From assembly GCF_015679325.1 (NCBI RefSeq), contig NZ_JADPVI010000001.1, positions 248,001-312,000 of the forward strand: a stretch of 64,000 nucleotides of DNA, given 5' to 3'. The DNA comes from Kaistella gelatinilytica (lineage in GTDB: Bacteria > Bacteroidota > Bacteroidia > Flavobacteriales > Weeksellaceae). Below, piece by piece: positions 8,279-57,315 of the stretch. Made by a program: the position numbers and the translations under genes. Every line of letters starts with the position of its first letter. Position 1 is the stretch's first letter. The notes beneath the pieces are model-generated. The model worked only from the letters and a program-made list of their open reading frames with translations. It was not told the DNA's origin and ran no database searches.

Positions 8279-11203
8279 ATGCAAGGAAAAGGACTTATTA
8301 CGCTGGTTGCGGTTATTCTGGGACTTATTTGTCTTAACGAATTGTTACCAACTTGGTACGCTAGTAAAATTGAAAAACAAGCCACCGAGTTTGCTGGGAA
8401 CAATCCCGAAAAGTATAAAAAAGAATTGGCAAGACTTTCTAAAGACACTCTGAATCTAGGTTTTACAAAATTGTATTATTCCAGAGCGAAAGAGAGAGAA
8501 ATGAAGTTGGGTCTGGATTTGAAAGGCGGTATCAACGTTCTTTTGGAAATCAACCACAGAGATTTGGTTAATGATTTGACCAACTATTCTACCAATCCAA
8601 TACTGCTCGAAACGCTGGACAGAACTGATAAAGATCAGAAAAATTCAACCAAAGCTTACATCGAGAATTTCTTCACAGAATTCGAGGCCGTAAATGCGGA
8701 AAAGAAAACTAACCTTAAACTGGCAGATCCGGAAATTTTCGGAAACACCAACCTTAGCGAAATAAAATATAATACGACTGATGCAGAGGTAAAAAATATC
8801 ATCCGTAGAAAAATTGATGCTTCTGAAGGCGCTGCATATGAAGTGATCAGAACCCGTATCGATAAAATGGGGGTTACTCAACCAAACGTGCAAAAAGTAC
8901 CGGGAACAGGAAGAATTTCTGTAGAAATGCCGGGAAGTAAAGATATTGACCGCGTAAAGAAAATGCTTCAGACTTCTGCTAAATTACAATTCTGGGAAGT
9001 TCAGCAACCACAGGAAATTTTGCCTTATTTCGAGCAGTTAAATGCTCTGATCTCTGCGAAAGGAGATTCTATAGGTGTTCCAAAAACTACCAATTTGGTA
9101 AGTTTGATGCAGTTGAATACTTTAAGAGCAAATGGAGTAGGAAACATTAAACTTTCTGATACGGCTATTGTAAATAAAGTTTTAAACTCCGATCTGGCTA
9201 AAAAACTTCGTCCGACCAACATTAAATATTCACAATTTGTTTGGGGTTACAAACCTGAAGCGAATGACGAAAATAATTTAGTTCTATACGCACTTCGTGG
9301 AAATATCAATCAGAAAGCTCCGGTTGACGGTGCTGTAGAATCTGCGAGAGTGAATTACGACGAAATGGGAAGAGTAGTTGTTGACATGCAGATGGATTCT
9401 AAAGGTTCCAAAGACTGGAAAACCATGACGGCGAAAAATGTGAACAAACCTGTTGCTGTAACTTTAGATAATATCGTTTACACCGCACCAAATGTTGTTA
9501 ATGAAATTCCAAACGGAAGAACGCAGATCTCCGGAAATTTCTCTCAGCAGGAAGCACAGGATCTTGTAGATGTTTTAGGAGCTGGTAAACTTCCGGCGAG
9601 TGCTAAAATTGTTCAGGCAGATGTTGTAGGACCTTCATTGGGAGCCGAATCAATTAATGCAGGGATGCTTTCATTTATGATCGCATTCTTAGTAATTGTT
9701 GCATATATTATTTTCTACTACGGTGGAGCTGGTGTTTTTGCAGTAATTGCAATGGTCATCAACTTGTTCTACATTTTCGGAATTATGGATTCCGTTGATG
9801 CGACTTTAACTTTACCTGGAATCGCAGGTATCGTACTCTCGATGGCGATGGCGGTCGATACGAACGTTATCATCTATGAAAGAACCAAAGAAGAACTCTT
9901 CGCCGGTAAAAATATTCTCGAAGCCTACAAAGACGGTTTCAAACACGCACTTTCGGCGATTATCGATGGTCACTCGACTACGATTCTAACCGCATTGGTA
10001 TTGTACATTTTCGGAACAGGACCAATTAAAGGATTTGCCGTAACCTTGATCATCGGTATCTTAATGACATTCTTTACTTCTGTATTATTATCCAGAGTAA
10101 TGATTTTTGCAAGATTAAATAAAGGAAAAGGACTTTCAGTTTGGACGCCTTTAACCAAAAATCTTTTCAGAAATGTTTGGATCGATTTTATTGGAAAAAG
10201 AAAATATGCATACATCATTTCAGCAGTTCTTACGATTGCGAGTTTGATCTCAATGAAAGTAAACGGTTTCAAATACGGGATCGATTTTACTGGAGGTCGT
10301 AATTACGTAGTGAGATTTGATAAGCCTGTAGATGCAGATAATATTGAAAAATCCTTGATCAAACAATTCCAGACCGCAGATGGTAAAAACTCTGCTGTAG
10401 AAGCAAAAACTTTTGGAAGTGGAAATCAGTTAAAAATTTCTACCGATTATTTAATTGATGATGAATCGTTGAAAGCCGATCAAACCATTGAACAGAAATT
10501 ATTTGATGGACTGAAACAAAATCTTCCAGGAAACTTAACCTTAGCAGAATTCAAATCTGCAGATGTTAATCATGCGGGAATCGTTTCTTCTACGAAAGTA
10601 GGACCAACCGTTGCCGATGATATCAAAACCGGTGGAATGTATGCTGTAATTGCAGCTTTAGCAGGGATTTTCCTTTATATTTTGATAAGATTTAGAAAAT
10701 GGCAGTTCTCTTTAGGAGCCGTTGCAGGTCTTGCTCACGATGCGATCATCATTTTGGGAGCTTATTCATTGCTTCATAAGTACATGCCGTTCAACATGGA
10801 GATTAATCAGGATTTCATTGCGGCAATTCTAACCGTTTTGGGTTATTCAATTAATGATACTGTAATCGTATTCGATAGGATCCGGGAGTATTTGAGAGAG
10901 AAAAAATCCCTTACATTGGCAGGATTGTTCGATGATTCAATTTCCAGTACATTGGGTAGAACGTTCAATACTTCATTTACCACGATTTTGGTTATTTTGG
11001 CCATCTTCATTTTCGGTGGAGATAACTTGAGAGGATTTATGTTCGCCTTACTTTTGGGTATTGCGTTTGGAACCTACTCTTCGATCTTCGTCTCTTCAGC
11101 GATCGCTTATGATTTCTTGAAAGGAAAAGGAGGAAAAGAAGAAAAATTGCATGGCAGAACAACAGAAGATGTTGAGATCATTGACAAAAGAACGAAGAAA
11201 TAA
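8279..11203 (+). CDS. secDF: Protein translocase subunit SecDF (fused)
   Basis: 974-residue fusion of SecD and SecF, the RND-type partner of SecYEG that uses the proton gradient to help pull proteins across the inner membrane. The SecD half has the first helix, the motif GLDLKGGINVLLEI (about residues 78-91), a large periplasmic domain, VVGPSLGAESINAG and the helix-4 region SMAMAVDTNVIIYERTKEEL. The SecF half has GIDFTGGRNYVVRFD and TVLGYSINDTVIVFDRIRE. The conserved Asp and Arg residues used in proton coupling are present. Fusion is the normal state in Flavobacteriia. A terminator follows the stop, and a TAnnTTTG box precedes the start, so it seems to be a single-gene unit. Confidence 0.97.
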   Translation: MQGKGLITLVAVILGLICLNELLPTWYASKIEKQATEFAGNNPEKYKKELARLSKDTLNLGFTKLYYSRAKEREMKLGLDLKGGINVLLEINHRDLVNDLTNYSTNPILLETLDRTDKDQKNSTKAYIENFFTEFEAVNAEKKTNLKLADPEIFGNTNLSEIKYNTTDAEVKNIIRRKIDASEGAAYEVIRTRIDKMGVTQPNVQKVPGTGRISVEMPGSKDIDRVKKMLQTSAKLQFWEVQQPQEILPYFEQLNALISAKGDSIGVPKTTNLVSLMQLNTLRANGVGNIKLSDTAIVNKVLNSDLAKKLRPTNIKYSQFVWGYKPEANDENNLVLYALRGNINQKAPVDGAVESARVNYDEMGRVVVDMQMDSKGSKDWKTMTAKNVNKPVAVTLDNIVYTAPNVVNEIPNGRTQISGNFSQQEAQDLVDVLGAGKLPASAKIVQADVVGPSLGAESINAGMLSFMIAFLVIVAYIIFYYGGAGVFAVIAMVINLFYIFGIMDSVDATLTLPGIAGIVLSMAMAVDTNVIIYERTKEELFAGKNILEAYKDGFKHALSAIIDGHSTTILTALVLYIFGTGPIKGFAVTLIIGILMTFFTSVLLSRVMIFARLNKGKGLSVWTPLTKNLFRNVWIDFIGKRKYAYIISAVLTIASLISMKVNGFKYGIDFTGGRNYVVRFDKPVDADNIEKSLIKQFQTADGKNSAVEAKTFGSGNQLKISTDYLIDDESLKADQTIEQKLFDGLKQNLPGNLTLAEFKSADVNHAGIVSSTKVGPTVADDIKTGGMYAVIAALAGIFLYILIRFRKWQFSLGAVAGLAHDAIIILGAYSLLHKYMPFNMEINQDFIAAILTVLGYSINDTVIVFDRIREYLREKKSLTLAGLFDDSISSTLGRTFNTSFTTILVILAIFIFGGDNLRGFMFALLLGIAFGTYSSIFVSSAIAYDFLKGKGGKEEKLHGRTTEDVEIIDKRTKK

Positions 11204-11252: not shown

Positions 11253-11273
11253 GTGCAATATTTTTTATTTGGG

Positions 11274-11294
11274 TCTCGTCATTCAATGACGAGA
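11274..11294. repeat. Short perfect hairpin
   Basis: A 10-bp perfect inverted repeat around one base (arms 11274-11283 and 11285-11294) that directly abuts the dispersed repeat starting at 11295. No T-run follows, so it is not an ordinary terminator. Confidence 0.6.
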
Positions 11295-11362
11295 TCTTCC
11301 GTTCCCGCTTTTTTCCTTCACTTCGTTCCGCAAAAAGAGCTCCACTCAAGCCGGGTCGCAGA
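11295..11362 (-). repeat. Dispersed intergenic repeat, copy 1
   Basis: Same ends as the element at 36309-36383. Read on the minus strand it starts ACCCGGCTTGAGTGGAGCTC, runs through a T-rich then A-rich central part and ends AGCGGGAACGGAAGA. The two ends are conserved between the copies while the centre differs. Elements of this appearance are, from memory, frequent between genes in Chryseobacterium relatives; their function is unknown to me. Confidence 0.75.
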
Positions 11363-11403
11363 TTTCGCTTCTTAAATAAAAACCTATCAACTCATAAAAT
11401 TCT

Positions 11404-11694
11404 GAATTTAAAACCGGCATCGGAAGCGTAGGCGTTAAGAAAAATTGATAGAAAACCGTTAAAAAATTTCTTTGTCCGACGCGCGCAATAATTTTAATAC
11501 TCATGAAAAAATCTTCTGTCGCGCTAGTTCAGAAATTTTAGGTTTTCTATCAATTTTTTAGCCGCAGTTTCCAAGCCTTGAATTTTTGGTTATTTTGTTT
11601 CAAGACAAAAGAATACGAAAAAAAATAATTATAACATTCTTCCTTCTGCAAAATTAAAAAAATGAAAAGGCTAGATATGAAATCATTAAAATCC
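11404..11694. repeat. 0.3-kb tandem repeat, unit 1
   Basis: First of three consecutive near-identical units of about 291-301 bases. Its core is a long inverted repeat: an 18-base arm at 11440-11457 is perfectly complementary to 11541-11558, with an inner AAAATTTCT/AGAAATTTT pair (11463-11471 with 11531-11539) and a GCGCG/CGCGC pair further in. A second hairpin with stem TTTTGT/ACAAAA (11593-11598 with 11605-11610) follows. The last 80 bases are AT-rich and less conserved between units. No coding frame persists across units. Confidence 0.9.
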
Positions 11695-11995
11695 GAATCT
11701 AAAACCGGCATCGGAAGCGTAGGCGTTAAGAAAAATTGATAGAAAACCGTTAAAAAATTCCTTTGTCCGACGCGCGCAATAATTTTAATACTCATGAAAA
11801 AATCTTCTATCGCGCTAGTTCAGAAATTTTAGGTTTTGTATCAATTTTTTGGCCGCAGGTTCCAAGCCTTGAATTTTTGGTTATTTTGTTTCAAGACAAA
11901 AGAACATAGAAAAAACGCGAATAAATAATTAAAAGACTATTCCCTCCACAAAATTACACAACTGAAAAAGGATAGATTTGAAATCATTTAAATCG
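11695..11995. repeat. 0.3-kb tandem repeat, unit 2
   Basis: Second unit. The inverted-repeat arms are 11731-11748 and 11832-11849, with one mismatch caused by a C-to-G change in the right arm. The terminal TTTTGT/ACAAAA hairpin is kept. Most differences from unit 1 are single-base changes in the core and larger changes in the AT-rich tail. Confidence 0.9.
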
Positions 11996-12275
11996 GAATT
12001 TAAAACCAGCATCGGAAGCGAAGGCGTTAAGAAAAATTGATAGAAAACCGTTAAAAAATTTCTTTGTCCGACGCGCGCAATAATTTTAATACTCATGAAA
12101 TAATTTTCTATCGCGCTAGTTCAGAAATTTTAGGTTTTCTATCAATTTTTTAGCCGCAGTTTCCAAGCCTTGAATTTTTGGTTATTTTGTTTCAAGCCAA
12201 AAGAACAAAAAAAAAAGGAAATAAATAACTGAAAAATTCTTCGGTCGTCAGAATTACAAAAGAATATTTTTAAAA
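11996..12275. repeat. 0.3-kb tandem repeat, unit 3
   Basis: Third unit. Arms 12032-12049 and 12133-12150 are perfectly complementary. The terminal hairpin has one changed base (CCAAAA instead of ACAAAA). The end of the unit is hard to place because similarity fades in the AT-rich tail before the MFS gene. Confidence 0.85.
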
Positions 12276-12353: not shown

Positions 12354-13577
12354 ATGAAAAAAAATCCAAAATCCGCCGCTGTAGGTTTTATCTTCATCAC
12401 TTTACTCATCGATATTACCGGTTGGGGAATTGTAATACCCGTCGTTCCGAAATTAATTCAGGAACTTACGCACAACGCAGATTTAAGCATTGCCTCGCAA
12501 TACGGAGGATGGCTCAGTTTCGCTTATGCCGGAATGCAATTTATTTTCGCTTCCGTTTTAGGTGGATTAAGCGATAAATTCGGCAGAAGACCGATCATTC
12601 TTTTTTCTTTGTTAGGATTCTCAGTCAACTTTTTTATTCAGGCAATTGCACCTTCTATATTTTGGCTTTTTGTCGGTAGAATACTCTCCGGAGTTACAGG
12701 CGCTAGTATTACCACCGCAAGTGCCTATATCGCAGATGTTTCTACAGAAGAAAATCGGGCAAAGAATTTCGGAATGATCGGTGCCGCTTTTGGGGTCGGT
12801 TTTATTATTGGACCGGTAATTGGTGGTTTGCTCGGACAATACGGAGCCCGAGTTCCCTTCTACGCCGCTGCGGGTTTATGTCTGGTTAATTTTCTATACG
12901 GATTATTTGTTCTGCCGGAAAGTTTAGACAAAGAACACCGCCGAGATTTCAACTGGAGGCGTGCAAATCCCGTTGGTTCATTGTTGCAGCTTCGAAAATA
13001 TCCTCAAATTCTCGGCCTAATTGCCGCTTTAATATTTGTCTATATTGCAGGTCATGCTGTGCAAACCAACTGGACATTCTTCACCATGTACAAATTCAGC
13101 TGGTCCGAAAAAATGGTCGGACTTTCTCTCGGAGTTGCTGGTTTAATGGCAGCTTTGGTGCAAGGATATTTGATCCGTTTTATTCAGCCCAGATTAGGCA
13201 ATGAAAGAAGTATTTTCTATGGCTTACTTTTATATGCATTGGGAATGATTTTATTCGCTTTTGCCACCGAAAGCTGGATGATGTTTGCATTTCTGATTCC
13301 GTATGGTTTGGGTGGAATTGCAGGTCCGGCTTTGCAATCCGTGATTTCTGCTCAGGTTCCAAAGAATCAACAGGGTGAATTGCAAGGAGCTTTGGCGAGT
13401 TTAGTAAGCTTAACTGCGATTGTTGGTCCGCCTTTAATGACCAATACATTCTTTTATTTTACCCATGATAACGCACCGTTTAAATTTGCAGGAGCACCAT
13501 TTTTTCTCGGATTTATATTAATGATGATCAGTGCGGTTATTGTATTTTTTGTTTATAAAAAGAAACCAATTTCTTAG
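12354..13577 (+). CDS. TetA-like MFS drug exporter
   Basis: 407-residue major facilitator with 12 predicted helices, most like the tetracycline-resistance TetA/TCR branch (drug:H+ antiporter, 12 helices). Signatures are [13 protein letters not shown] in helix 1, the loop 2-3 motif [20 protein letters not shown], and motif C-like [20 protein letters not shown] in helix 5. Chromosomal members in Flavobacteriia are often plain housekeeping exporters, so drug resistance is not implied. The gene follows the triple repeat array, and its ATG is close to a TATCTTTA box. It is separated by 166 bases from tatA and is probably transcribed alone. Confidence 0.88.
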
Positions 13578-17719: not shown

Positions 17720-18404
17720 AAACTCCAGAGGAGTTTAATCTCTGTAGAAAATATGAAATGAAAATATCCAGCGTTCCGTAGGAACGCCATCTAAAAAACT
17801 AGAATAAATGTAAAATCTTGTTTATTAAATCCATATCGTAAAATCAAATTTTTTAGAAAAATGGCGAATACCTACACACAAATTTATATTCAACTTATTT
17901 TTGCAGTAAAATTTAGGGAAAATAAAATTTCAGAAGAAATTAGAGATGACGTAGAAAAATATATTTGTGGAATTTTCAATCATAAAAAACAGCGTGTTTT
18001 AGCCATTTATGCAAATCCGGACCATATTCATATTTTCTTTTGTTATAGAAATCTTCAAATTTCAATACCAGATTTAGTAAAAGTGGTTAAGGTTGAATCA
18101 ACTAATTTTGTAAATGAAAAGAAATATTTATCCAATCATTTTTCTTGGCAAGAAGGATATGGTGCTTTTTCTTATTCGAAAAGCCAGAAAGAAAACGTCA
18201 TTAATTATGTTTTAAATCAAAAAGAGCATCATGAAAAACAGAGTTTTAAAAATGAATATATCGATTTTTTGAAGAAGTTTGAAATAGAATTTAAAAATGA
18301 ATATTTATTTGATTTTTTTGAATAATCACGAGATAGCGTTCCTGCGGAACGCACCTTTAAACTTGTAAATTATTAACTACAGAGATAAGATTCCTCTGGA
18401 ATCT
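17720..18404 (+). mobile_element. REP-flanked IS200-like transposon unit
   Basis: Unit formed by a Y1 transposase gene and two short hairpins on each side, arranged in mirror order. Left: 17720-17736 (AAACTCC-AGA-GGAGTTT) and 17771-17787 (GCGTTCC-GTA-GGAACGC). Right: 18336-18352 (GCGTTCC-TGC-GGAACGC) and 18388-18404 (AGATTCC-TCT-GGAATCT). A perfect 10-base inverted repeat also links the sides: ATCTCTGTAG at 17738-17747 and its complement at 18377-18386. HUH transposases of this type recognise hairpins at element ends, so these are likely the ends or associated REP sequences. Exact element borders cannot be proved from one copy. Confidence 0.75.
17861..18325 (+). CDS. tnpA: IS200/IS605-like Y1 transposase (REP-associated)
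   Basis: 154-residue single-domain HUH transposase of the Y1 class, near the normal length of IS200/IS605 TnpA. The HUH motif is NPDHIHIFF (about residues 51-59) and the candidate catalytic tyrosine is in ENVINYVLNQKEHH, matching the YIxNQ helix of the family. It should cut and join single-stranded DNA at hairpin ends. The gene appears intact. It begins with ANTYTQIYIQLIFAVK, the usual start for the Bacteroidota group. Four small hairpins in mirror arrangement flank it, and there is no tnpB. It lies between polA and a glycosyltransferase gene. Confidence 0.88.
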   Translation: MANTYTQIYIQLIFAVKFRENKISEEIRDDVEKYICGIFNHKKQRVLAIYANPDHIHIFFCYRNLQISIPDLVKVVKVESTNFVNEKKYLSNHFSWQEGYGAFSYSKSQKENVINYVLNQKEHHEKQSFKNEYIDFLKKFEIEFKNEYLFDFFE

Positions 18405-57173: not shown

Positions 57174-57251
57174 AGGAGCTATTTCCCGCTCTCCACTATA
57201 TCTTTTATTCCGCTGAAGCTTCATAAAAGGATGCCGTTTCGATCGGGGCTA
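57174..57251. repeat. Intergenic structured repeat of Flavobacteriia type
   Basis: Starts AGGAGCTATTTCCCGCTCTC and ends GATGCCGTTTCGATCGGGGC, with a central stem CTTTTAT/ATAAAAGG around GAAGCTTC. From memory, sequences with these ends and a variable central hairpin are common between genes in Flavobacteriia. The centre varies in such elements while the ends stay fixed. Only this one copy is in the window; part of the pattern (CCCGCT near one end, paired T- and A-runs in the centre) recalls the repeats at 11295 and 36309. Confidence 0.6.
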
Positions 57252-57315
57252 AAAAAGATTATTTTTAGTATCGACGATTCGTTTTTTATTAATTTTATCG
57301 ACAGGTTTTTTAAGT

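Follow-up and report, generated by a model that had tools for sequence, protein, structure and literature searches.

The gap of approximately 1.1 kb that lies between secDF (8279-11203) and an MFS transporter gene (12354-13577) in Kaistella gelatinilytica holds three head-to-tail copies of a 211-base unit (positions are those of the window, that is, the whole stretch of 64,000 nucleotides that was analysed). The interpretation preferred here, to which we assign a probability of roughly 0.55, is that this array arose locally, by tandem amplification of a single member of a large family of structured repeats dispersed between genes, and that its unit is a transcribed, non-autonomous element of the ERIC/Correia kind.

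The three copies lie on the plus strand at 11411..11621, 11702..11912 and 12003..12213, and they score 191.5, 189.3 and 185.5 bits in a cmsearch with R1, a covariance model built from 29 diverse copies whose training set includes copy 2, to which copies 1 and 3 are nearly identical. A repeat finder recovers the same three copies (spacings of 291 and 301), and TRF reports a single array at 11385-12215 (period 301, 2.8 copies, score 1351), so the three near-identical tandem units described in the first-pass annotation are borne out. The same is true of its contrast between conserved cores and divergent AT-rich tails, since the cores are approximately 96% identical (95.2-96.1% in pairwise comparisons over 207 nt) and the spacers 62-81%. 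The AT-rich, unstranded spacers between copies 1 and 2 (11622..11701) and between copies 2 and 3 (11913..12002) share 81% identity with each other and 62-66% with the sequence that follows copy 3. One 21-mer taken from the core is found at three places in the window and in none of 100 shuffles, even when 3 mismatches are allowed. As the annotation had also stated, no coding frame is common to all units: the ORF list of the array contains none that recurs in the three, and the lone ORF of at least 60 aa is an 81-aa frame on the minus strand that spans copies 1 and 2.

Two other features of the window deserve mention. A second palindromic repeat (GGGcagc...CGGGctgcaa), unrelated to the element, is found at about 11269-11375, right after the secDF terminator and immediately before copy 1; at least seven other Kaistella genomes have related forms in this position, and this palindrome is therefore older there than the array. 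The sole Rfam family above threshold in the window is the Flavo-1 RNA (RF01705), at 57178-57254 on the minus strand (65.5 bits).

Across the family, the unit measures about 210 nt (range 209-245 nt) and starts with YGRC-YtAGGA. Its body is a long, imperfect hairpin in which a GTTAA bulge is conserved, with an apical internal loop (GTTTGAG/CGAGTT) and a closing TCC-A-GYC. The unit ends in a second, short hairpin, and the 6 bases of the loop of this hairpin are complementary to the CTTGAN motif located just upstream. In copy 1 the long hairpin (foot GGC/GCC, GTTAA bulges, apical internal loop) spans 11416..11577 on the plus strand, as indicated by a single fold and by covariation among the 29 copies, and it is repeated in copy 2 at +291 and in copy 3 at +592. 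The tail hairpin of copy 1, backed by tail covariation throughout the phylum, occupies 11588..11613 (plus strand), and its loop TTCAAG (11599-11604) is complementary to CTTGAA (11577-11582). Folding of copy 1 gives a z-score of -3.9 on either strand.

The strongest evidence that this fold matters comes from covariation. In alignment A1, the long and tail hairpins comprise 62 pairs and 90% of the cells pair; 31 of these pairs are altered on both sides, in 202 cells, compared to 76 cells in shuffles, none of 500 of which reaches the observed value. Such two-sided counts are inflated by the kinship of the rows and by the derivation of the structure from the same alignment, yet controls in which the partners are slid by one to three columns remain far lower, with at most 57 two-sided cells. 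The tail shows the same tendency: of 59 distinct tails, 58 have a standard loop-closing pair in the hairpin (27 expected) and 53 a standard CTTGAN/NTCAAG pair (39 expected), the latter overlapping with the hairpin pairing. As judged from these sequence comparisons, the folded shape of the element is maintained by selection. With pairs found from both strands, GT exceeds AC by about 3:1 among the non-Watson-Crick cells, which speaks for a plus strand selected in single-stranded form rather than for a palindrome of double-stranded DNA. Taken together with the co-orientation with genes described below, this excess suggests that the selected form is the folded plus strand, most likely as RNA.

The position of the copies relative to genes is consistent with this proposal. 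In 62 clusters, all 79 pairs of adjacent copies lie on the same strand and none on opposite strands. Where a cluster occupies a gap between co-directional genes, 35 run with transcription and 2 against it (13 and 2 after merging loci with a common neighbour family), and the bias is less marked outside Kaistella, where 19 run with transcription and 12 against it; all of these orientation counts use simple ORF calls of at least 120 aa. One genome (G041) carries both orientations within 80 kb, each along its own genes, and it is thus unlikely that the direction of replication is the cause. The copies are probably transcribed, and two signals were sought around them: no U run that would form an intrinsic terminator follows either hairpin in the window sequence, and a promoter motif of their own (TTTG/TAnnTTTG) is not enriched upstream of the copies. 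The clusters are frequent at polysaccharide loci, with a Wzz-like gene and genes that we take, from our own reading of their sequences, to encode a UDP-sugar dehydrogenase and an epimerase, as well as beside DUF6266, DUF5675 and RteC genes. At five loci from several species (L085, L088, L091, L033 and L092), arrays flank capsule or exopolysaccharide genes and DUF6266/DUF5675 genes, and these places may be hot spots of gene exchange.

The family extends well beyond the window. The first-pass annotation had proposed a covariance-model search of the core against Flavobacteriia genomes. A search with R1 finds the element in 31 of the 36 genus genomes analysed, the number of copies per genome being 0-29 (five have none; copy counts are lower bounds), and in 44 of 148 genomes of the order, belonging to 24 of 62 genera; at the level of the order at most 16 candidates were scored per genome, and these counts are minima. 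A loose pattern based only on the tail has matches in 66 of the 296 Bacteroidota genomes scanned. The loci matched include some in distant bacterial families where the element follows the same plan (a GGCC...AGCC foot, GTTTGAG...GCGAGTT near the apex and a CTTGA tail); in certain families foot and tail are kept and the apex is different, and part of the matches are due to chance and have none of these features. Rfam contains no family for the element at gathering or relaxed thresholds, where only sub-threshold chance matches appear, and blastn searches of phage and plasmid collections gave no match to it. Among viral contigs the loose tail pattern matches mostly by chance, with near-full-length element-like sequences in 2 of 120 among the matches listed. 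No description of this repeat family was found in the open-licence literature, including a search with the tail DNA. Many copies are interrupted, often in the tail hairpin, by a separate repeat of about 55 nt that has a palindromic start followed by TTCGCYGATTC...GATGAAGCAAA (for example at L097:4836-5063, L104:4417-4688 and L096:12459-12661, among others).

The array itself has a much narrower distribution. DNA of the window matches 21 of 40 searched genomes (the source genome counted). The secDF-MFS array was seen only in the source genome (G000) and, by a pattern scan, in K. jeonii DSM 17048 (G023, contig NZ_JSYL01000026.1), whose secDF is 91.5% identical. In seven other genomes (G012, G005, G007, G013, G014, G024 and G049) the gap between secDF and the MFS gene is about 100 bp, and no copy of the element was found in the longer gaps of other relatives. 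A base-exact empty site was sought at secDF, dinB and yicC, where the Kaistella flanks are too diverged to place the junction. The comparison of these gaps indicates that the secDF array is a lineage-specific insertion that took place after the split from most relatives.

The two known versions of the array differ in the order of their spacers, which is permuted: the spacer between copies 2 and 3 is 96.6% identical to K. jeonii spacer 1, and the spacer between copies 1 and 2 agrees in its 3' half with the 3' half of K. jeonii spacer 2. This permutation between two species implies that unequal recombination has added, removed or exchanged units since the two diverged, and it points to unequal crossing-over as the process. 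For the same reason, the high identity of the cores within the array is partly the result of recent recombinational turnover rather than of selection for three copies. Arrays at other loci contain four copies (G006), seven consecutive copies (G040), four or five (G002) and three (G000). In K. jeonii (L040:3761-5115), a copy is split within its tail hairpin by DNA that contains an IS110-family transposase gene (PF01548/PF02371), and in G049 the tail loop of one copy (L182) has likewise been interrupted.

These results bear directly on the proposal that the array is a local and functionless tandem duplication with no wider meaning, the explanation that the annotation would have favoured had the unit been present only in this strain, with no transcripts and no copies elsewhere. 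That situation is excluded by the members of the family in other genomes and by the tandem arrays at other loci. The limitation of the array to two species and its origin by tandem duplication do agree with the proposal, but the unit that was duplicated is a member of a family found in many genera and strongly covarying, and as a general explanation the proposal is improbable. It is refuted for the unit, and for the copy number of three it likely remains valid.

How the element reaches new sites is a separate matter. Within single genomes, near-identical cores with precise ends are found in unrelated flanks. Some conserved gene pairs have copies in certain lineages only; the yicC-gmk pair, for example, contains the element in 3 of 30 species. 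Neither terminal inverted repeats nor a clear target duplication is evident in the Kaistella flanks of the element. One genome (G067, L233-L245) contains a MITE of approximately 470-480 bp with the inverted ends CTGACTATCCGC/GCGGATACTCAG that carries a diverged core of the family; identical 8-9 bp words flank about half of its copies, and at least one core copy in that genome is without the carrier. The presence of a diverged core inside this MITE implies that the core can travel as a passenger. The element thus resembles the MITEs of DDE insertion sequences in being non-autonomous and dispersed, and differs from them in that inverted ends and a clear target duplication are both lacking in the Kaistella form and present only in the larger G067 carrier. 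Reverse transcriptase was rejected as a mobiliser, given that no RVT_1 match exists in seven genomes with 10-29 copies (G004, G016, G042, G043, G044, G045 and G049). Nine near-identical reverse transcriptase ORFs of 443 aa, probably group II introns, are present in G008 (C1 264034-2158828 and C2:9187), a Kaistella relative with zero copies of the element.

The idea that the element is of the REP/REPIN type, moved as single-stranded DNA by an HUH (Y1/RAYT) transposase, has several observations in its favour. Like REPs associated with RAYT (TnpA_REP, including the Bacteroidetes subclass 2.6), it consists of hairpins dispersed between genes and folds as a single strand, without terminal inverted repeats; Y1 genes are present in 30 of the 36 genomes and RAYT-type genes in 19, and the element might correspond to the "atypical secondary structures" described next to subclass 2.6 genes, which have been reported to have copies elsewhere in the genome (PMC6006769). 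However, REPs are defined as palindromes of 20-40 nt with a GTAG or CGTC tag (PMC3733652), whereas this element is about ten times longer (209-245 nt), starts with YGRC, and is abundant in genomes without RAYT genes, with no linkage to them. Neither Y1 nor RAYT has a match in G004 (29 copies), G049 (16) or G014 (5); RAYT is absent from G004, G040, G049, G002, G047 and G000, and among 29 RAYT-like matches, counting remnants, a single one lies within 1.5 kb of a copy of the element. The window does encode a Y1 (IS200-like) transposase (17861-18325, plus strand, 154 aa; one of four in the genome), but no copy lies beside it, and its motifs DHIH and NQKEHH fit subclass 1.2, described as generally without terminal structures (PMC6006769). 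A RAYT/Y1 transposase was consequently rejected as the mobiliser, being absent from copy-rich genomes and not adjacent to copies (an adjacency in G005 stood alone); the REP/REPIN explanation is largely refuted with respect to the maintenance of the element, and overall we regard it as quite unlikely. Even more doubtful is a recombination site for gene cassettes, attC-like or served by another recombinase. Same-strand copies do flank capsule and DUF6266/DUF5675 genes, and in G021 copies abut genes on both sides, but tandem duplication also gives a same-strand order, and no linked integrase was seen among the inspected neighbours. An attC site was rejected because the ends do not match: the paired RYYYAAC/GTTRRRY boxes are absent from them, the ends are GRC...GYC, and GTTAA is an unpaired bulge.

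Another proposal, which we consider clearly less likely than the transcribed repeat but more likely than the other alternatives, is that of a structured RNA that is functional in Bacteroidota. According to this proposal, the element would be an undescribed class of RNA with a role in the cell (a cis element of UTRs or a trans-acting sRNA), kept in up to dozens of copies and multiplied in arrays, so that tandem duplication raises the dose, and with a tail that would form a kissing interaction or pseudoknot or act as a two-state switch. It would account for the strong two-sided covariation in all helices, the tail pairings conserved across the phylum, the conserved unpaired motifs, the co-orientation with genes and the better conservation of cores than of spacers. 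Covariation of structure is also what curated non-coding RNAs in Rfam display, where, as mentioned, no family matches. On the other hand, copy number varies from 0 to 29 within one genus, with five genomes lacking the element; the sites are mostly unconserved, as at yicC-gmk; no promoter-like motif is enriched upstream; and the arrays turn over. The first-pass annotation had offered an amplifying element and a kept structured RNA as alternatives. The element is both dispersed and amplifying, and a structure under selection, and either of the two may explain its existence.

ERIC and Correia (CREE/NEMIS) elements are intergenic imperfect palindromes of 100-200 bp, non-coding and present in many copies. 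CREE have been reported to bind RNase III and to affect adjacent genes (PMC2649163). The element described here is likewise a dispersed, non-coding, imperfect palindrome found between genes in many copies. It differs from them in its phylum and sequence, in lacking terminal inverted repeats and clear target duplication in Kaistella, and in having an extra tail hairpin with loop complementarity and tandem arrays on the same strand. If it is a transcribed repeat of this kind, selection would keep the plus-strand fold, most likely in RNA made by read-through from adjacent genes. The most economical mechanism would be a non-autonomous repeat with a plus-strand fold that something recognises. New sites may be reached via some trans-acting machinery, through recombination, or as a passenger of other mobile DNA, and after its arrival the element would multiply in place through unequal crossing-over. 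A transcript containing it would gain a long, imperfectly paired arm, which could be a substrate for an RNase specific for double strands. Several observations argue against the transcribed repeat: the conservation of the loops and tail across the phylum exceeds what a parasite strictly needs, no mobiliser and no base-exact empty site were found in Kaistella, and the orientation bias weakens outside this genus.

By itself, the array next to secDF has little interest; its value is that it leads to a large family of structured repeats, spread over many genera and absent from Rfam. If the element is an RNA with a function, a whole phylum carries an RNA that has not been studied. If instead it is a repeat, it is the counterpart of ERIC and Correia in Bacteroidota, and it clusters at variable loci, those for capsule among them, where the turnover of genes can be driven by direct repeats.
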